Shown here in pieces: positions 27,107-50,454 of a DNA stretch of 64,000 nucleotides. The DNA lies in NCBI GenBank assembly GCA_947626495.1, contig CANQSJ010000007.1, positions 1-64,000 of the forward strand. The letters are read 5' to 3'. Position 1 is the stretch's first letter. Each line of letters begins with the position of its first letter. The DNA comes from an uncultured Oscillospiraceae bacterium (GTDB taxonomy: Bacteria; Bacillota; Clostridia; Oscillospirales; Oscillospiraceae). The notes under the pieces were generated by a model, which saw only the letters and a program-made list of their open reading frames with translations, did not search any database and was not told where the DNA came from. A program made the translations under genes and the position numbers.

Positions 27107-27197
27107 AAAGGGGCGCTGGGCACGGCCCGGCTGAGACGGCGCCAGGCGCCGGACCCTGGAACCTGATCCGGATAATACCGGCGTAGGAAACCGCGGC
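27107..27197 (+). promoter_or_regulatory. TPP riboswitch (THI element)
   Basis: Conserved THI-box strings in the right order: GGGGCGCTGGG, CTGAGA (27131-27136), ACCCTGGAACCTGATCCGG and ATAATACCGGCGTAGGAA (27172-27189). It binds thiamine pyrophosphate. It lies 10-20 bases after the expected transcription start and ahead of a thiamine uptake gene, which fits shut-off when thiamine is plentiful. Confidence 0.96.
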
Positions 27198-40391: not shown

Positions 40392-40584
40392 TTTCGATAT
40401 TACCTGATTTCGCTGAAGAATTGTCGCCCGCCCTTTGGGCAAGGCATTAGTTTAGCACCGCCGGAAATGAAAAACAAGGGCAATCCTTCACAATTTTACG
40501 CGCATATACCATATCTTGTGCGCAAAAATGCCGAAGAAGGGGCGCGCCACCCATGTTCTGGCGGCGCGCCGGCAGAAAAACCGC

Positions 40585-40613
40585 TTGCGTGCGGACGGCT
40601 CGCACAGTATAAT
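40585..40613 (+). promoter_or_regulatory. Promoter of the surface protein gene
   Basis: TTGCGT (40585-40590), 17-bp spacer, TATAAT (40608-40613). The 40392-40680 gap has this promoter and GC-rich inverted repeats (GGCGCGCC twice near 40541 and 40564), but no gene. Confidence 0.7.
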
Positions 40614-40655
40614 GAACCCGCGGGATATAAGCAGCGCGGTTTCGCGCCGCGAAGG

Positions 40656-43151
40656 AAAACGAAGAGAGGACGGATCGACCATGAAAAGACGTGCTTTGAG
40701 TTTGCTTCTGGCGCTGGCGATGGCGCTGGGGCTGTGCGTTTCGGCCTTCGCGGCGGAGGAAGAGAGCGCGGCGGCCGAGCCCGCCGCCCAGGAGGAGACA
40801 GTCCCCGCGGAGGGAGCGGAGGAGACCGCTCCGGAGCCGGAGACCCCGGCAGAGGCGGATACTCCGGCGGAGCCCGGAGAGCCGGCCCCTGCGGAGCCGG
40901 AGGAGGACAAAGCGGACGCGGCGGCGGACGAGCCGGATACCGCATCCGTTTCCGGCAGCTGCGGCGCTAACGGCGGCCATGTGACATGGAGGTACGCCGA
41001 CGGCACCCTTACCATCTCCGGGACCGGGGCGATGAAGGATTATAAGCGGCCGGAGGATGCGCCGTGGGCCTATGAGGAGTGGCTGTTCGATATAGCGCGG
41101 GTCGTGGTCCAGGGAAGGGTGACCCACATCGGCGATTACGCGTTTTATATGCTGGGCCGGGTGGGCGTGCCGTTTTCCGTCACGTTGGAGGAGGGCATCA
41201 CCAGCATAGGGAAAATGGCCTTCTTTTGCTGCGAGGTGGTTTCGGACATGACCCTCCCCGCCAGCCTGACGGAGATCGGCGAAGACGCCCTTTTTCTGGT
41301 CGCTACGCCTGCGTTTCATGTCGCGAGCGGCAACCGGTTTTTCAAAGCGGTGGACGGGGTGCTGTTTGACAACTCCGGACGGACGCTTTTGCAGTATCCC
41401 GATGGGAAGAAGGATCTCTCGTACACGGTGCCTGCCGGCGTGACGACGATCGCGTCCGGCGCCTTGTACGGCGCGGCGTTCACCAGCGTAACCTTCCCGG
41501 ATACGCTTACGGCGATTGGCGATTATGCCTTCCAGTTCTCCGAGATCTGCAGCCTCGATCTCCCCAGTGGGCTGAAGACCCTGGGGGTATGCGCATTCTG
41601 GGGCTGCGACAGTCTGCAGGAGGTGACGATTCCCGCCAGTGTGACGAAGATCGACGCAGGGGCGTTCGGTCTGATGTCCCCATCCGATGTGACGGTCCTC
41701 AGTCCGTATTGTCAGATCGCGGAAGGAAGCGACTACGGAACCACAACGCTGGGCGACCCGGAGGTGACCGTTATCCACGGCTATGACGGCTCCACGGCGG
41801 AAAGCCACGCGAGACAGTATGGTTTCCGCTTTGAGTCCCTGGGTCCGGCACCCTCCGCGCCGCCGCAGACGGACCCGCCCGTCTCCCAGAACACCGGCTG
41901 GGCCAAGGAAAACGGGAAGTGGTATTATTACCGCGGCGGCACGAAGGTCCGGGACGAGTGGATCGAGGACGGCGGAAAGGAATATTATCTGGGCTCCTCC
42001 GGCGCCATGCGCACCGGCTGGATCCAGTCCGGCGACGTGTGGTACTATGCCAACAGCAAGGGGGAGCGCCAGTACGGCTGGAAGCAGATCGACAGAAAGT
42101 GGTATTATCTCAATCCCGTCACCGGCCAGATGCGGACCGGCTTTTATGACGACGGCGGAAAACGGTATTACAGCACCTCCAACGGCGTCATGAGCACCGG
42201 ATGGATCAAGGTGAACGGGATCTGGTACTACGCGGACAAGAGCGGCGCGCTGCAGACCGGATGGAAGAAGGTCGGCGGGGTGTGGTACTACTTTGACCCG
42301 GCGGACTACGAAATGCTCACCGGCCGCATAGACGTGGATGGAGCGTCCTATTATTTGAACGCCAGCGGCGCCATGAAGACCGGCTGGGTCAGCCTGCCCA
42401 ACGGCGATTACTACTATGCCAGTCAGTCGGGCGCGCTGATCAAGGACGATTGGGTGAAGTACAGGGGCAGCTGGTATTGGCTCAAAGCCGACGGCCTCAT
42501 GGCAAGGAACGAGACGCTTTCCATAGGCGGAAAGAATTACAGGTTTAGCGATTCCGGGATCGCAACGGAGGTCACGGACCTCTATCCTGCGATCTCCCTT
42601 CAGGTCCCCCTCTATAAGCAGGCAGATCCGGCGTGGGCCAATGTGCATCTCGGCAGCTCCGGCAAAACGATGAAATCGTCCGGCTGCCTGGTGACGTCGT
42701 TTGCAATGGCGGAAAGCTATCGTACCGGGCAGACGATATACCCTGACGCCATGGAGAAGATGTGCTCCTTTGGCAGCAATGGCAACATGAACGGCTTCCC
42801 CAAGGGCTATACATACACCTCCGGCGGGGAAATCGACCTTGAATTTGTATATGAGCTGCTCCGGCAGAATAAGCCGGTCATCGTCGGCGCCAACGGAGGG
42901 GGAGAGCATTGGGTCGTGGTGACAGGCTTCACCGGGGGAGATGTCCTCACGGCGGAGGGCTTTACGATCAACGATCCGGGCGCCAGCCGCCGCACGCTGC
43001 AGGATCTGTTCAATTACCGTCCCAACTATATCCGCTGCCGCTACTATAAGTGACGGATCCGCGTGTCGGGACAGCCTATTACAAAAACGAAGAGAGGACG
43101 GAGCGACCATGAAAAGACGTGTTTTGAGTTTGCTTCTGGCGCTGGCGATGG
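40656..43151 (+). repeat. Duplicated 68-bp leader (ribosome site plus signal-peptide start)
   Basis: Positions 40656-40723 and 43084-43151 match at 66 of 68 bases. Each copy covers the ribosome site (AAGAGAGGACGGA), the ATG, and the first 14 codons of a signal peptide (MKRR.LSLLLALAM). The genes differ completely afterwards, which points to reuse of a leader module by recombination or duplication. Confidence 0.9.
40681..43053 (+). CDS. Secreted protein: BspA-like LRR, wall-binding repeats and C39-like peptidase domain
   Basis: The 790-residue exported protein. Residues 1-24 form a signal peptide (cleavage likely after AFA), then a Glu/Pro/Ala-rich linker to about 90. Residues about 92-395 carry BspA/LRR_5-type repeats (SLTEIGEDAL, GLKTLGVCAFWGCDSLQEVTIP). 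Residues about 404-640 are choline-binding-like wall repeats (GWAKENGKWYYY, MRTGWIQSGDVWYY). Residues about 641-790 resemble a C39_2/papain-fold domain with Cys669 (SSGCLVTS), His743 (EHWVVVTG) and Asp765 (INDPG), a plausible complete catalytic triad. The role is likely at the cell surface, in adhesion and cleavage of peptides or peptidoglycan cross-links. I start at ATG 40681 because of the signal peptide and ribosome site. Confidence 0.85.
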   Translation: MKRRALSLLLALAMALGLCVSAFAAEEESAAAEPAAQEETVPAEGAEETAPEPETPAEADTPAEPGEPAPAEPEEDKADAAADEPDTASVSGSCGANGGHVTWRYADGTLTISGTGAMKDYKRPEDAPWAYEEWLFDIARVVVQGRVTHIGDYAFYMLGRVGVPFSVTLEEGITSIGKMAFFCCEVVSDMTLPASLTEIGEDALFLVATPAFHVASGNRFFKAVDGVLFDNSGRTLLQYPDGKKDLSYTVPAGVTTIASGALYGAAFTSVTFPDTLTAIGDYAFQFSEICSLDLPSGLKTLGVCAFWGCDSLQEVTIPASVTKIDAGAFGLMSPSDVTVLSPYCQIAEGSDYGTTTLGDPEVTVIHGYDGSTAESHARQYGFRFESLGPAPSAPPQTDPPVSQNTGWAKENGKWYYYRGGTKVRDEWIEDGGKEYYLGSSGAMRTGWIQSGDVWYYANSKGERQYGWKQIDRKWYYLNPVTGQMRTGFYDDGGKRYYSTSNGVMSTGWIKVNGIWYYADKSGALQTGWKKVGGVWYYFDPADYEMLTGRIDVDGASYYLNASGAMKTGWVSLPNGDYYYASQSGALIKDDWVKYRGSWYWLKADGLMARNETLSIGGKNYRFSDSGIATEVTDLYPAISLQVPLYKQADPAWANVHLGSSGKTMKSSGCLVTSFAMAESYRTGQTIYPDAMEKMCSFGSNGNMNGFPKGYTYTSGGEIDLEFVYELLRQNKPVIVGANGGGEHWVVVTGFTGGDVLTAEGFTINDPGASRRTLQDLFNYRPNYIRCRYYK

Positions 43152-45001: not shown

Positions 45002-45030
45002 TTGACAGGGGGCGGCAACGCTGATAGAAT
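45002..45030 (+). promoter_or_regulatory. Promoter of the pot operon
   Basis: TTGACA (45002-45007), 17-bp spacer, TAGAAT (45025-45030). The ATG of potA is 390 bases further down, leaving a very long leader. Confidence 0.8.
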
Positions 45031-45036
45031 GTGTGC

Positions 45037-45393
45037 CGTCTCAATTGGAAAGGACCTTTCCAAAGCAAGATGCGACCGCCGTCCTCCGGGGCGGCCAAGG
45101 CCACACGGACAGCCGGGTCGAATGCCGAACGCCGCGAAAGCGGCCGGCAGCGCAAGCTGCCTTATTGATTGAGTTGGGCCGCCATGGCCCAGGGCTCAAG
45201 TTTTATAAGTTGGTTACTTTATAACCGGTGCCGGGCGGCACACAAACTTGTAAAATGGTCAGTAAGAGTAGGGCAAGGCATTTTGCTTTCAGAAAACTCT
45301 CAAATCCATTGGGACGGGGTCCGTTTTTTTCAGACGGGAGACCGTAACATCGATGCAAGTGGAATGTGCCGGGCATATTCCGCTTGTTTTTTT
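45037..45393 (+). ncRNA. Structured 5' leader of the polyamine transporter operon, ending in a terminator (riboswitch candidate)
   Basis: From the predicted transcription start to potA almost every segment folds. CTCAAT (45039-45044) pairs with ATTGAG (45167-45172) around TTGGAAAGG/CCTTTCCAA, CGACC/GGTCG, a GAAA-capped GCCGC/GCGGC stem and a GCAA-capped GGCAGC/GCTGCC stem. Next come TGGGCC/GGCCCA (45175-45191), CAAGTTT (45198-45204) with AAACTTG (45244-45250) around GTGCC/GGCAC, ACGG-GAGA-CCGT (near 45334), and finally a perfect 14-bp stem (45356-45386) with T7. This terminator lies 28 bases ahead of potA. No T-box, TPP, SAM, lysine, cobalamin or other riboswitch signature that I know is present. 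A ligand-sensing role (polyamine?) is inference. Confidence 0.65.
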
Positions 45394-45420
45394 ATTTTTC
45401 GTCAAAAGGGAGATCGCGCC

Positions 45421-46539
45421 ATGGACAAGATCATCGAGCTGAGAAACATCACCAAATCCTTCGACGGAGAGGTGGTGCTGGACAACATCAGTCTGGACAT
45501 CTACGACAACGAGTTCATCACGCTCCTGGGACCCTCCGGCTGCGGCAAGACCACCACTTTGCGGCTCATCGGCGGGTTCGAGACCCCCGACTCCGGCGAC
45601 GTGCTGTTCATGGGAGAGCGGATCAACGACGTGCCGCCCCACAAGCGGAACGTGAACACGGTCTTCCAGCGCTACGCCCTGTTCCCCCATCTGAACGTGT
45701 TCGAGAACGTGGCCTTCCCCCTGCGGGAGCGGAAGGTGCCCCGGGCCGAGATCGAGGAGCGGGTGGAGGAAATGCTCGCCATGGTGGCGCTGAAGGGCTT
45801 CGAGCACCGCTCCGTCACCAGCCTGTCCGGCGGCCAGCAGCAGCGGGTGGCCATCGCCCGCGCCCTGGTGGGAAAGCCCCGGGTGCTGCTGCTGGACGAG
45901 CCGCTGGCGGCGCTGGATCTGAAGCTGCGCAAGGACATGCAGCAGGAGCTGAAGAACATCCAGAAGGCCACCGGCATCACCTTCGTGTTCGTCACCCACG
46001 ACCAGGAGGAGGCCCTTTCCATGTCCGACACCATCGTGGTCATGAGCGAGGGGCGCATCCAGCAGATCGGCACCAGCCTGGACGTCTACAACGAGCCGCA
46101 GAACGCCTTCGTGGCGGATTTCATCGGCGAGAGCAACATCGTGGACGGCGTCATGCTGGCCGACCGGTCCGTGTCCTTCTCCGGCCACACCTTCCAGTGC
46201 GTGGACGGCGGCTTCGGCAAGAACGAGCCGGTGGACGTGGTGGTCCGGCCGGAGGACGTGGACATCGTGCCGGAGGAGAAGGGAATGCTCCGGGGCGTGG
46301 TCACCTCCGTCACCTTCATGGGGGTGCACTATGAGGTGATCGTGGACATCGGCGGGTTCAAGTGGATGATCCAGACCACCGATTTCGTGGACGTGGACGA
46401 GCACATCGGCCTTTTCATCGAGCCGGACGCCATCCACATCATGAAAAAGAGCGAGTATTCCGGCCTTTACGGCGACTACGCCAGCTTCTCCAACGAATTT
46501 GACGAGCTCAGCGACGCGGAAAGCGAGGGGGCGGAATGA
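45421..46539 (+). CDS. potA: Spermidine/putrescine ABC transporter ATP-binding protein
   Basis: ATPase of a polyamine importer, 372 residues. Walker [10 protein letters not shown] (residues 37-45), signature [15 protein letters not shown], Walker [13 protein letters not shown] and the switch His in [10 protein letters not shown], then a C-terminal TOBE-type domain (residues ~290-350; [15 protein letters not shown]). ATG at 45421 after AAAAGGGAGATCGCGCC, following the long leader terminator. Overlaps potB by ATGA. Confidence 0.96.
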
Positions 46540-47417
46540 CGAAGAAAAAGACCCGTTCCTCTCTGGTCACCGGTCTGGCCGGCGGACCCTACGAGGTCTG
46601 GGCGGTGCTGTTCATTCTGGTGCCGCTGGCCTTCGTGGCCTATTACGCCTTCACGGACAACGATTTCCGCTTCACCACCGCCAACATCGTCCGGTTTTTC
46701 ACCGACACCTCTCCCGCCGCCGACGGCGCGGGGGGCACCTCCATGGTGCGGACCTATCTGGTGATCAGCTGGCGCAGTTTGAAGCTGGCGGCGATCTCCA
46801 CGGCGGTGTGTCTGGTGCTGGGCTACCCGTTGGCCTATATCATCTCCCGGGCCAGCCCCAAGGCGCAGAAGACCATGATGACCCTCATCATGATCCCCAT
46901 GTGGATGAACTTCCTCATCCGCACCTACGCCTGGATGACCATTCTGCAGGACACCGGCATCCTCAACAACTTCCTTGCGAAGCTGCACCTGGGCCGGATC
47001 CACATCATCGGCACCGAGACCGCCGTCATCATCGGCATGGTGTACGACTATCTGCCCTATATGATCCTGCCGCTGTATTCCATCATGGCGAAGATGGACT
47101 TCAAGCTCATCGAGGCGGCCCGGGATCTGGGCTGCGCCCCGGCGGGGGTGCTGCGGCGGGTGATATTGCCCCTGAGCATGCCCGGCGTGGTCAACGGCAT
47201 CACCATGGTGCTGATCCCCTCCATCAGCACGTTCTATATCTCCCAGAAGCTGGGCGACGGCATGTTCTTCCTGCTGGGCGACGCCATCGAGGGGCAGTAT
47301 GTGGCCAACAATCTCCACTTCGCCGCGGCCATCGCCTTCATCCTGATGGTGGCGCTGCTGGCGGCCATGGCGGTGATGCGCGTCGTCACCGACCGGCACA
47401 CCTACGGAGGGCAGTGA
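46536..47417 (+). CDS. potB: Spermidine/putrescine ABC transporter permease PotB
   Basis: The 293-residue inner-membrane permease has six hydrophobic segments. The EAA-loop [25 protein letters not shown] (about residues 189-213), which contacts PotA, is intact. The start overlaps the potA stop as ATGA, and potCD follows after one base. It forms the channel together with the PotC part of the next gene. Confidence 0.95.
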
Positions 47418-47418
47418 G

Positions 47419-49398
47419 ATGAAAAAAGCTTCCAAGATCTTTACCGCCCTGATGTTCCTGTTCCTGTTCGCGCCGCTGGTGATCCTGCTGGTGTTCTCCT
47501 TCAACGAGGCCAGAAGTCTCTCGGTATTCTCCGGCTTCTCCCTGAAGTGGTACCGGGAGCTGTTCCGGGACACGGAGACCCTCAAGGCCGTGCGCAACAC
47601 CCTGGTGCTGGCGGTGTGCGCCGCCGGCGTGTCCACCGTCATGGGCACCGCCGCCGCCGTGGGCATCCACCGGATGCGCTCGAAATATCTGCGCTCGGCG
47701 CTGGACATGGTCACCAACATCCCCATGATCAACCCGGACATCATCACCGGTATCTCCATGATGCTGATGTTCGTGTTCGCCAGCCATCTGTTCGGCCTGG
47801 CCAACAGTCTGAGCTTCATCACCCTGCTCATCGCCCACATCACCTTCTGCCTGCCCTACGTGATACTGCAGGTGCTGCCCCGGCTGCGGCAGATGGATAA
47901 ATCCCTGCCGGAGGCAGCCATGGATCTGGGCTGCACCCCCTGGGGGGCCTTCTGGAAGGTGGAGCTGCCGGAGATCATGCCCGCCATCGTCACCGGCATG
48001 ATCATGGCCTTTACCCTGAGCCTGGACGACTTCGTCATCAGCTACTTCACCACCGGAACCGGCTTTCAGACTCTGCCCATCCGCATCTACAACATGACGA
48101 AAAAGACGGTCACGCCGGACATGTACGCCCTGGCCACGCTGATCTTCTTCGTCATCCTGGCGCTGCTGCTGCTGTCCAACCTCACCGACAGCGAGGACAA
48201 CCAAAAGCTGCGGGCCGCCCGGAAGGCCAAGCGGGCCGCCTCCGGCAGGCCGCCCATGGACCCCAGACGCCGGCGGATCCTCTATACCTGCGGCGGGTCG
48301 CTGGCGGTAATCGCCCTGGCGGCGACGGTGGTGCTGGCCGTCACCGAGACGGACAACAAGCCCCAGGTGCTCAACGTCTACAACTGGGGCGAGTATATCT
48401 CCGACGGCTCCGAGGGCTCCATGGACGTGGTGAAGGAGTTCGCCGCCTGGTATGAGGAGGAATACGGCCGGCCGGTGCAGGTCAACTACGAGACCTTTGC
48501 CAGCAACGAGGACATGTACGCGAAGCTGTCTAAAAACGCCATCAGCTACGACGTGATCATTCCCTCCGACTACATGATCGCCCGCATGATCGACGAGGAT
48601 ATGCTCCTGCCTCTGGACTTTGACAACATCCCCAACTACCAGTATATCGACGAGGATTTCCGGGGCCTTTACTACGACCCGGATAACCTGTACTCCGTGC
48701 CCTACGCCTACGGCATCGTGGGCGTCATCTACAACGCCAACGTGGTGGACGAGGCGGACACCGGCGGATGGGACCTGATGTGGAACGAGAAATACGCCGG
48801 CCAGGTGCTCCAGTTCAACAACTCCCGGGACGCCTTCGGCACCGCCATGTACCGGGCGGGCATCGACGTGAACACCACCGACCGGAGCCTCTGGGACCAG
48901 GCGCTGGAGTCCCTGCTGGAGCAGCGCCGCAGCGGCGTGGTGCGCAGCTATGTCATGGACGAGGTGTACAACATGATGGAGTCCGGCGAGGGGGCCATTG
49001 CCGCCTATTACGCCGGGGACTACTTCACCATGCTGGACGCCCAGGCCGACAACGTGGATCTGCGGTTCTACTATCCGGAGCGGACCAACTTCTACATCGA
49101 CGCCATGTGCATCCCCACCTGCTGCCAGAACAAGGAGGTGGCGGAGATCTTCATCAACTACATGCTCTCCCGGGAGCCCGCCATCGCCAACGCCGAGTAC
49201 ACCTATTACGCCTCCCCCAACCGGCTGGTGTATGAGGACCCGGACTACATCGAGGAGATGGGCGAGGAGACCATGGACATCCTCTATCCCGATTGGGGCG
49301 ACTTTTCCGAGCAGTACAACACCTACGCCTACCGGAATCTGGACAACGATCTGCTCAGCTATATCAACTCCCTCTGGGAGACGCTGAAGATCAACTGA
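47419..49398 (+). CDS. potCD: PotC-PotD fusion: polyamine permease joined to its binding protein
   Basis: A single 659-residue chain. Residues 1-255 are the permease PotC with six membrane segments and the EAA loop EAAMDLGCTPWGAFWKVELP (165-184). A basic linker (about 262-286, KLRAARKAKRAASG..DPRRRR) leads to an extra transmembrane helix (287-308). Residues 316-659 are a PotD-like polyamine-binding domain (LNVYNWGEYI, SYDVIIPSDYMIARMI, YAYGIVGVIYN, YWWGTAYIA-type GEGAIAAYYAGDY region), which would face outside, tethered beside the channel. No stop separates the parts. Encoded just after potB, so the operon makes a complete ABC importer. Confidence 0.95.
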   Translation: MKKASKIFTALMFLFLFAPLVILLVFSFNEARSLSVFSGFSLKWYRELFRDTETLKAVRNTLVLAVCAAGVSTVMGTAAAVGIHRMRSKYLRSALDMVTNIPMINPDIITGISMMLMFVFASHLFGLANSLSFITLLIAHITFCLPYVILQVLPRLRQMDKSLPEAAMDLGCTPWGAFWKVELPEIMPAIVTGMIMAFTLSLDDFVISYFTTGTGFQTLPIRIYNMTKKTVTPDMYALATLIFFVILALLLLSNLTDSEDNQKLRAARKAKRAASGRPPMDPRRRRILYTCGGSLAVIALAATVVLAVTETDNKPQVLNVYNWGEYISDGSEGSMDVVKEFAAWYEEEYGRPVQVNYETFASNEDMYAKLSKNAISYDVIIPSDYMIARMIDEDMLLPLDFDNIPNYQYIDEDFRGLYYDPDNLYSVPYAYGIVGVIYNANVVDEADTGGWDLMWNEKYAGQVLQFNNSRDAFGTAMYRAGIDVNTTDRSLWDQALESLLEQRRSGVVRSYVMDEVYNMMESGEGAIAAYYAGDYFTMLDAQADNVDLRFYYPERTNFYIDAMCIPTCCQNKEVAEIFINYMLSREPAIANAEYTYYASPNRLVYEDPDYIEEMGEETMDILYPDWGDFSEQYNTYAYRNLDNDLLSYINSLWETLKIN

Positions 49399-49452: not shown

Positions 49453-50454
49453 TCAGAAGCACTTCTGGCAGAGCTTGTAGCCCCGGCTCAGAGCCCGGGC
49501 CAGGGTCATGGAGGACCAGTGCTTCATGCCGGAGCAGTCGCTGGTCCGGTGGATCTTGCCGGCGTTGCTGACATAGACGGTGGTGTGGTCGTACATGCCG
49601 CATTCGCTGTTCCAGGTGCCGACCCAGGCGCCGGAGCCGTTTACCCAGTACCGGTCCACTGCCTCGCTGCGGGCCATGAGGCCGTCGGACTTCAGATAAT
49701 AGCTTTTGCCGCCGGACTTGATCCAGGCGTCCCGGATGAGGGCGCCGCTCTTGTCGGCGTAGCGGTAATCGCCGCCGCCCAGGCTGATCCAGCCGGTGCG
49801 CATGGCGCCGGAGGCGGTGAACAGGTACTCCTTTCCATCCACGGAGAAGGTGCCGTCCCGGGCCATGAGCCCGTCGGCCTGCAGATAGTACCAGCTCTTG
49901 CCGGACTTGATCCAGGCGTCCCGGATGAGGGCGCCGCTCTTGTCGGCATAGCGGTAATCGCCGCCGCCCAGGCTGATCCAGCCGGTGCGCATGGCGCCGG
50001 AGGCGGCGAACAGGTATTCCTTCCCGCCGATGGCATAGATCCCGTCCTCGGCCATGGCGCCGGTCTCCGGGTCCAGGTAATACCAGCTCCTGCCGCTCTT
50101 CAGCCAGCCGGTCTGGAGAGTGCCGCTCTTGCTGGCGTAGTAATAGACTCCGTCCACCGTGAACCAGCCGGTGCGCATGACGCCCGCGCTGTCCACATAA
50201 TAGGTGCTGCTGCCGTCCGTGATCCACTGGGCGGTGAGCTTTTCGCCGTTTTCATACCAGTACCACTTGCCGTCCTCCTTCTGCCAGCCGGAGGGGCCGG
50301 CGGGCTCTTCCGGAGGCGCGGGATCGGGGGAACTGTCCGGCGCTTCGGCGGCCGCCTCCGGGGAACCGGCGGGCTCACCGGCGGCATAGGCCGGGACCAG
50401 CAGGCCCGTCAGCGCCGCCAGCGCCAGCAGCAGGCAGATCATGCGTCTTTTCAT
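49453..50454 (-). CDS. Secreted wall-binding repeat protein with C-terminal Cys-rich domain
   Basis: The 333-residue exported protein has a signal peptide (MKRRMICLLLALAALTGLLVPAYA), a Pro/Glu/Ala-rich stretch and about ten choline-binding-like repeats (GWQKEDGKWYWYENG, MRTGWFTVDGVYYYASK). Two successive repeat blocks are nearly identical at the DNA level (49711-49833 and 49900-50022). The C-terminal ~50 residues (KIHRTSDCSGMKHWSSMTLARALSRGYKLCQKC) carry three Cys and a His like a small metal-binding or cross-linking domain found at the end of surface proteins. Likely anchored to wall teichoic acid or related polymers; the function is unknown. Confidence 0.85.
   Translation of the reverse strand: MKRRMICLLLALAALTGLLVPAYAAGEPAGSPEAAAEAPDSSPDPAPPEEPAGPSGWQKEDGKWYWYENGEKLTAQWITDGSSTYYVDSAGVMRTGWFTVDGVYYYASKSGTLQTGWLKSGRSWYYLDPETGAMAEDGIYAIGGKEYLFAASGAMRTGWISLGGGDYRYADKSGALIRDAWIKSGKSWYYLQADGLMARDGTFSVDGKEYLFTASGAMRTGWISLGGGDYRYADKSGALIRDAWIKSGGKSYYLKSDGLMARSEAVDRYWVNGSGAWVGTWNSECGMYDHTTVYVSNAGKIHRTSDCSGMKHWSSMTLARALSRGYKLCQKCF
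49711..50022. repeat. Near-identical 123-bp repeat pair inside the wall-binding gene
   Basis: Blocks 49711-49833 and 49900-50022 are 189 bases apart start to start (63 residues) and differ at only a few bases, encoding WIKSG...LIRDA..GGGDYRYADKSGALI. The similarity shows recent repeat homogenisation or expansion. Confidence 0.85.

Follow-up and report, generated by a model that had tools for sequence, protein, structure and literature searches.

Riboswitches that respond to polyamines have long been sought. According to the excerpted introduction of PMC10853860, earlier claims of such elements were unconvincing; the same excerpts describe a spermidine riboswitch that is a variant SAM-I aptamer, located upstream of ldcC of Trichococcus ilyis and of speE and speB, in a rare class of 13 representatives. 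The leader RNA that we describe here, located ahead of potA in an uncultured Oscillospiraceae bacterium, would resemble that class, as the excerpts present it, in being an OFF switch that acts by transcription termination ahead of polyamine synthesis genes. It differs in its fold, which is not that of SAM-I (no match by cmscan at E values up to 1). Two further structured RNA candidates adjoining polyamine genes, the potE and odc1 motifs, appear in the excerpted part of PMC8632094, and their descriptions there set them apart: odc1, listed among uORF-type elements, consists of a short stem-loop and a pseudoknot, and potE has no clear expression platform.

A part of the leader RNA is present in Rfam as the 54-nt family RF02440, "Streptococcus sRNA SpF59 (ldcC RNA)". 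The source of this name is the Streptococcus pneumoniae transcript F59, also called srn235, SN20 or Spd_sr49, which is studied as an sRNA in the excerpted texts of PMC3395615, PMC12323649 and PMC4387999. In these texts F59 has the direction of SP0916; PMC3395615 places it between SP0915 and SP0916 and reports that insertions in srn235 and SN20, which are overlapping names, have a lung fitness of 0.05. The listed length of the RNA reaches 327 nt (PMC12323649). From the Rfam wording "ldcC RNA" it follows that the motif has already been named by someone; the family is still typed as sRNA. In their excerpted parts, PMC6296669 and PMC10942264 do not mention SP_0916, polyamine or lysine decarboxylase, PMC11109978 contains none of the polyamine terms, and PMC2864571 has potC as a table entry only. 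In the open-licence literature we found no paper naming the leader RNA a riboswitch; the Rfam label shows that part of it was named before.

The DNA analyzed here, referred to as the window, is a stretch of 64,000 nucleotides, and all features of the locus lie on its forward strand. Along positions 45002-45423 the order is promoter, leader RNA, terminator, ribosome site and potA. The promoter (45002-45030) is near-consensus, TTGACA-17-TAGAAT with TG ahead of the -10 element and 11 of 12 consensus matches. The complete conserved leader RNA, a candidate aptamer domain closed by the helix P0, spans 282 nt (45036-45317) and is separated by a linker from an intrinsic terminator of 15 bp followed by TTTTTTT (45355-45387; -21.7 kcal/mol). 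Within this linker, at 45319-45330, a small GC hairpin runs into a TTTTTTT tract and might act as a weak additional site of pausing or termination. The gene potA (45421-46539), for a polyamine transporter ATPase, was assigned by NF043075 (564.8 bits, cut-off 550) and TIGR01187 (367.6 bits, above cut-off). It is followed in the list of open reading frames by a potB-like ORF (46536-47417) and a fused potC-potD-like ORF (47419-49398), both named from their translations; the 659-aa product of the latter reads as a permease and then a substrate-binding domain (PotC-PotD fusion). The minimum free energy (MFE) of the leader (45036-45402) is -157.9 kcal/mol, compared with -120.8 +/- 6.2 kcal/mol for 100 dinucleotide shuffles (z -6.0), none of which reaches an energy as low. 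An earlier note, made from the sequence alone, had described a leader of about 385 nt between promoter and gene, filled with stems that include hairpins with GAAA and GCAA tetraloops, and a strong terminator ahead of the ribosome site of a polyamine transporter gene. All of this was borne out, with the two tetraloop hairpins at 45131-45144 and 45146-45161.

A cmscan of the window gave three gathering-level matches, namely a tRNA, a TPP riboswitch and RF02440. The last matches 45073-45128 with 64.7 bits (gathering score 37.2) and covers the helices H1, H2 and H3 and the conserved AAGGCCACACGGACAGCC and TGCCGA. At E values up to 1, the leader matched no Rfam family besides RF02440 and no riboswitch family. 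The statement of the earlier note that no known signature is present thus stands for riboswitch families and fails for this sRNA-typed family. Likewise, "undescribed" has to be narrowed, since 54 nt of the RNA are in Rfam; a match to an existing family was among the refuting outcomes that the earlier note had listed, but the riboswitch reading is not thereby refuted, because the family is a fragment typed as sRNA with no stated regulatory function. RF02440 resembles the leader RNA in its 5′ part (H1, H2, AAGGCCAUACGGACAGCCGGGUC..UGCCGA) and differs from it in type, in length (54 of about 282 nt) and in reach, as described below. Above its cut-off it occurs once in the genome of the window and in 49 of the 99 relatives searched (own genome included); among genomes of the genus, 34 of 35 carry it. 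In an alignment of 30 oriented leaders, conservation extends about 200 nt past the 54-nt model, and among the matches listed nearly all loci share downstream blocks including TTATTGATTGAG, TTTTATAAGTTGGTTAC, CTTGTGAAA, GGTCAATAAGAGT and TTTGCTATATAGACTCT.

We describe the RNA by a covariance model, R1, with 197 positions and 59 pairs, built from the alignment A2 (MAFFT, 45 sequences). R1 matches the window leader at 45073-45300 with 152.1 bits, and P0 and the inner closing helix P1 lengthen the leader RNA at either end. In a sample of 398 genomes drawn across the phylum, R1 matches 25, in a single place in each. RF02440 matches 19 of the same 398 genomes, 18 of them above its cut-off, and all 18 are within the 25 of R1; the remaining seven therefore lack a good 5′ motif. 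Rfam scans of six of these seven loci returned only tRNAs and one sub-threshold sRNA match, and in scans of three full members the 54-nt piece alone was recognized.

The phylum sample is a less selected test of gene association than loci fetched by pattern, and in it the next gene is a polyamine gene in all 25 genomes: SpeD in 10, a decarboxylase in 7, carboxynorspermidine synthase in 7 and PotA in 1. The degenerate pattern search retrieved at least 118 stretches from named genomes, in which the pattern bases are invariant by selection. Among the pattern matches listed are Paenibacillus, Bacillus, Neobacillus, Blautia, Acidaminococcus, Phascolarctobacterium and Erysipelotrichaceae, many Oscillospiraceae and Lachnospiraceae, and one MAG labelled Spirochaetes. 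In this MAG (L097) the RNA stands ahead of speD, decarboxylase, speE, speB and carboxynorspermidine synthase genes, and its presence may reflect transfer or a binning error. The 148 pattern matches in fetched loci gave 133 distinct loci with sufficient downstream DNA (28 from the search of relatives), and polyamine genes lie downstream in 127 of the 133 among the matches listed. The RNA is thus consistently associated with the genes of one metabolite. Among these listed matches, the first clustered ORF within 700 nt is PotA in 50 loci, SpeD in 34, an Orn/Lys/Arg decarboxylase in 28, carboxynorspermidine synthase-like in 15, peptidase-like in 3 and none of these in 3. Two of the last three end too early (L039, L056), and the neighbours of the third (L054) are unrelated. 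Protein names were tested on one representative per cluster: PotA, SpeE, SpeD, agmatinase and NspC passed NCBIfam cut-offs, whereas the carboxynorspermidine synthase (418.9 of 800), the decarboxylase (98.6 bits of 968, with LdcC as best hit) and the PotB-like protein stayed below the cut-off and carry family-level names. In the three loci of the peptidase-like group (L033, L079, L116), a peptidase-like lipoprotein gene follows the RNA, with no polyamine gene; the one that was scanned gave a weak M36-type NCBIfam hit only. In viral contigs, no exact match was found to one 22-base pattern from the 3′ core.

The earlier note had proposed that a long-range CTCAAT/ATTGAG pairing closes the structure. 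For pairs of segments we calculated the duplex energy within each locus and set it against the energies obtained when the partners were exchanged among loci. By this measure the pairing of the 5′ region with the TTATTGATTGAG region does not exceed that of swapped pairs (z +0.4, 88 loci), so the proposed closure is unsupported. Instead, CTCAATTGG (45040-45048) pairs with CCATTGGGA (45306-45314) in the MFE fold, within the helix P0 (45036-45048/45306-45317), whose 12 pairs, interrupted by one bulged T, are all canonical and present in that fold. For P0 the within-locus fit reaches z -9.7, with 0 of 5000 swaps as good. The inner helix P1, formed by AAAGCAAGATG (45062-45072), the strand directly before H1, and CATTTTGCTTT (45279-45289), the TTTGCT strand, has 11 pairs, all of them canonical and present in the MFE fold, and a within-locus fit of z -11.6 (0 of 5000 swaps). 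These values come from 92 non-redundant loci, of 99 usable among 100; three control segment pairs gave z -0.1, +1.3 and -0.8, and earlier runs with broader segments (96 of 116 and 95 of 114 loci) were concordant.

R1 itself contains a hairpin, H11 (AGTAAA/TTTGCT), that uses the same 3′ strand as P1. Its within-locus fit is z -0.7, with no double changes in A2. In A3, an alignment of 100 loci fitted to R1 that leans towards the model, 5 of 6 H11 pairs have a double change, each in only 2-4 loci, and RNAalifold also draws a hairpin there. Since the 3′ strand is common to both and P1 is supported at z -11.6, we favour P1, with H11 as a possible alternative state.

Within the closing helices, H1 (45073-45077/45116-45120) and H2 (45078-45084/45089-45095) covary in both A2 and A3; H2 is in the MFE fold and H1 is not. 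H3 (45099-45101/45112-45114), also outside the MFE fold, has some support from sequence variants among 100 loci (C.A to U.G in 5, G-C to A-U in 2). A possible loop pairing of CGG (45106-45108) with CCG (45125-45127) is canonical, and the bases of the CGG or GGC pairings with the TGCCGA loop are almost invariant across loci, so covariation has nothing to test there. The GAAA-loop hairpin is missing from many relatives, and H4, the GCAA-loop hairpin GGCAGC-GCAA-GCTGCC, has changes on both sides in 6 of 6 pairs and is in the MFE fold. The long-range helix H5 (TTATTGA/TCAGTAA, 45162-45168/45259-45265) is in the MFE fold; 97.1% of its cells are paired in A2, yet without any double change, and 4 of 7 pairs show double changes in A3. 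It encloses H6 (TTGAG/CTCAA, 45169-45173/45195-45199), with double changes in 5 of 6 pairs in A2 and 4 of 5 pairs in the MFE fold, and H7 (TTTTATAAGTT/AACTTGTAAAA, 45201-45211/45245-45255), with mostly one-sided covariation. H7 in turn encloses H8 (45212-45226) and H9 (45228-45241), and these three helices are in the MFE fold. H10 (GAGT/ACTC, 45266-45269/45296-45299), not in the MFE fold, changes from UA to CG at its last pair in 3 of 100 loci and would be a pseudoknot if P1 is formed.

Covariation in homologous leaders, which the earlier note had named as a check, supports most of this predicted fold. In A2, 91.7% of cells pair, compared with 86.6% in shuffled alignments and 34-48% with strands slid; 24 of 59 pairs are changed on both sides (13.7 expected), and the covariation score is 0.204 vs 0.109 +/- 0.005 (0 of 500 shuffles). 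Support in A2 is strong for H2, H4, H6 and the outer pair of H1 and mostly one-sided for H7, whereas H5, H10 and H11 have little or none. In the model-leaning A3, double changes occur in 46 of 59 pairs, with covariation of 0.254 vs 0.115 +/- 0.003. An unguided mutual-information ranking of 89 sequences placed pairs of H1, H2, H4, H6 and H8 near the top, with some non-complementary pairs mixed in, and RNAalifold on the same sequences gave local hairpins only; this alignment omits 23 of the 133 loci, which have no recognized 3′-hairpin end, and loci of unusual length. The RNA is thus a conserved, structured 5′ leader with covariation. Several loci depart from the full form. Four short forms (L177-L180) consist of the CTTGTGAAA...GACTC core and a terminator with little else, their 5′ domain lost, and have speD or a decarboxylase gene downstream. 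H4-H9 are absent or replaced in L139 and L146, which keep the 5′ motif and the 3′ core, and this core is missing from L054 and L052, the latter still with a decarboxylase operon downstream.

Terminator-like hairpins of -9 kcal/mol or lower were found in 113 of the 124 distinct loci that have the 3′ core (strict detection passed 62 of 124, the looser one 113), and 110 distinct loci were used, among them at least one whose arm is apparently misplaced (L037, -5.4 kcal/mol). In the window, the 5′ arm of the terminator can pair with aptamer strands to form an antiterminator (45236-45242/45365-45371 and 45246-45252/45354-45360), with 14 of 14 pairs canonical and an energy of -20.7 kcal/mol, vs -21.7 kcal/mol for the terminator. 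Across the 110 loci, a 20-nt aptamer segment around CTTGTGAAA pairs with its own terminator 5′ arm at a mean of -13.2 kcal/mol, compared with -11.0 kcal/mol for swapped arms (permutation sd 0.20; 0 of 5000) and -5.9 kcal/mol for shuffled segments; the own pairing beats its shuffles in 109 of 110 loci. When the aptamer segment was slid, offsets from -10 to +5 alone reached 0 of 1000, with a peak of z -10.6; of the other eleven offsets, ten gave z -1.1 to +1.6 and one, +60, gave z -2.2 (15 of 1000). Base composition is therefore an unlikely cause of the fit. Because one aptamer strand serves both H9/H7 and the antiterminator, the folded aptamer and the antiterminator are predicted, at the level of sequence, to be mutually exclusive; these within-locus tests measure pairing and give no sign of which state a ligand favours.

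Based on these comparisons, the leader is probably an OFF riboswitch that terminates transcription in response to a polyamine, with spermidine as the most likely ligand. The ligand would hold the aptamer together, so that H7 and H9 retain the shared strand, no antiterminator is formed, the terminator forms and potA is left untranscribed. When the ligand is scarce, the strand made up of the 3′ arms of H9 and H7 would shift to the antiterminator, with the terminator 5′ arm, and the operon would be read. The direction of control follows if the ligand stabilizes the aptamer, a step that we infer. The polyamine-controlled riboswitch before potA that the earlier note had suggested gains support from the gene association, the covariation and the coevolving antiterminator.

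SpeD/SpeE synthesis, the carboxynorspermidine-type route and PotABC(D) have spermidine in common, as product or as cargo, and from these downstream genes we take spermidine to be the likely ligand. Synthesis operons with the RNA contain SpeD, decarboxylase, SpeE and SpeB. In the genome of the window (89.8% complete), no match to speE or nspC models was found; import would thus be its likely source of spermidine, which fits the control of an import operon. A riboswitch of the same build could instead sense putrescine, agmatine, cadaverine, decarboxylated SAM or a cation such as Mg2+, given that a decarboxylase comes first in 28 of the 133 loci (among the matches listed) and many operons include agmatinase, so that putrescine and cadaverine are also products. 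However, in 12 of the 133 loci (again among the matches listed) the only genes observed are the pair of carboxynorspermidine synthase and decarboxylase, and since this route takes in a diamine and gives out a triamine, those loci favour a triamine as the common end product; we consider another ligand unlikely.

We give a still smaller chance to the possibility that a protein or the translation apparatus reads the leader and thereby controls the same terminator. What the data reveal is an RNA switch with its genes and not the trigger, and large conserved leaders can bind proteins; nevertheless, in an unsystematic look, no partner gene was noticed travelling with the RNA, and its occurrence in many families and ahead of three kinds of operon fits a metabolite sensor.

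A trans-acting small RNA, as the type of RF02440 (Gene; sRNA) implies, would agree with the detection of the pneumococcal F59/srn235 transcript as an sRNA in the excerpted texts of PMC3395615 and PMC12323649. The layout of the window places the RNA in the potA transcript as a leader and not as a free-standing sRNA gene, polyamine genes follow the RNA in 25 of 25 genomes and in 127 of 133 loci among the matches listed, it pairs with the terminator in cis, and a terminated leader would resemble an sRNA in RNA-seq; a role in trans is thus highly improbable. Leader-peptide attenuation, which would suit a long leader with a terminator, is hardly credible, as a start codon with an SD-like site and at least five codons occurs at one place in at most 5 of 100 aligned loci, with no conserved short ORF with a ribosome site in these loci.

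A terminated polyamine-operon leader would explain both the fitness effect and the 327-nt length of pneumococcal F59, as given in the excerpted sources. On balance, we favour a broader view in which the RNA forms its own class of spermidine riboswitch, not related to the SAM-I variant and occurring far more widely, with a large, pseudoknotted, P0/P1-closed aptamer whose 5′ domain is lost in some lineages (the short forms L177-L180). This class would control two synthesis routes and import across Bacillota by one strand-exchange mechanism, its terminated product having been catalogued as an sRNA. With the RNA in 25 of 398 genomes sampled across the phylum and 34 of 35 of the genus, it could be a main route of spermidine homeostasis in gut and soil Bacillota. 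It offers a testable aptamer and strand exchange along with an explanation of a pneumococcal "sRNA", and since so large an aptamer would here serve to bind a small, flexible cation, its mode of recognition is of interest.

Elsewhere in the window, the TPP riboswitch found by cmscan lies at 27109-27189 (60.3 bits). On both flanks of the pot operon, at 40516-43053 and 49453-50454 (minus strand), secreted-looking proteins with repeats of the W-Y-Y...G-x-M-x-T-G-W type are encoded.
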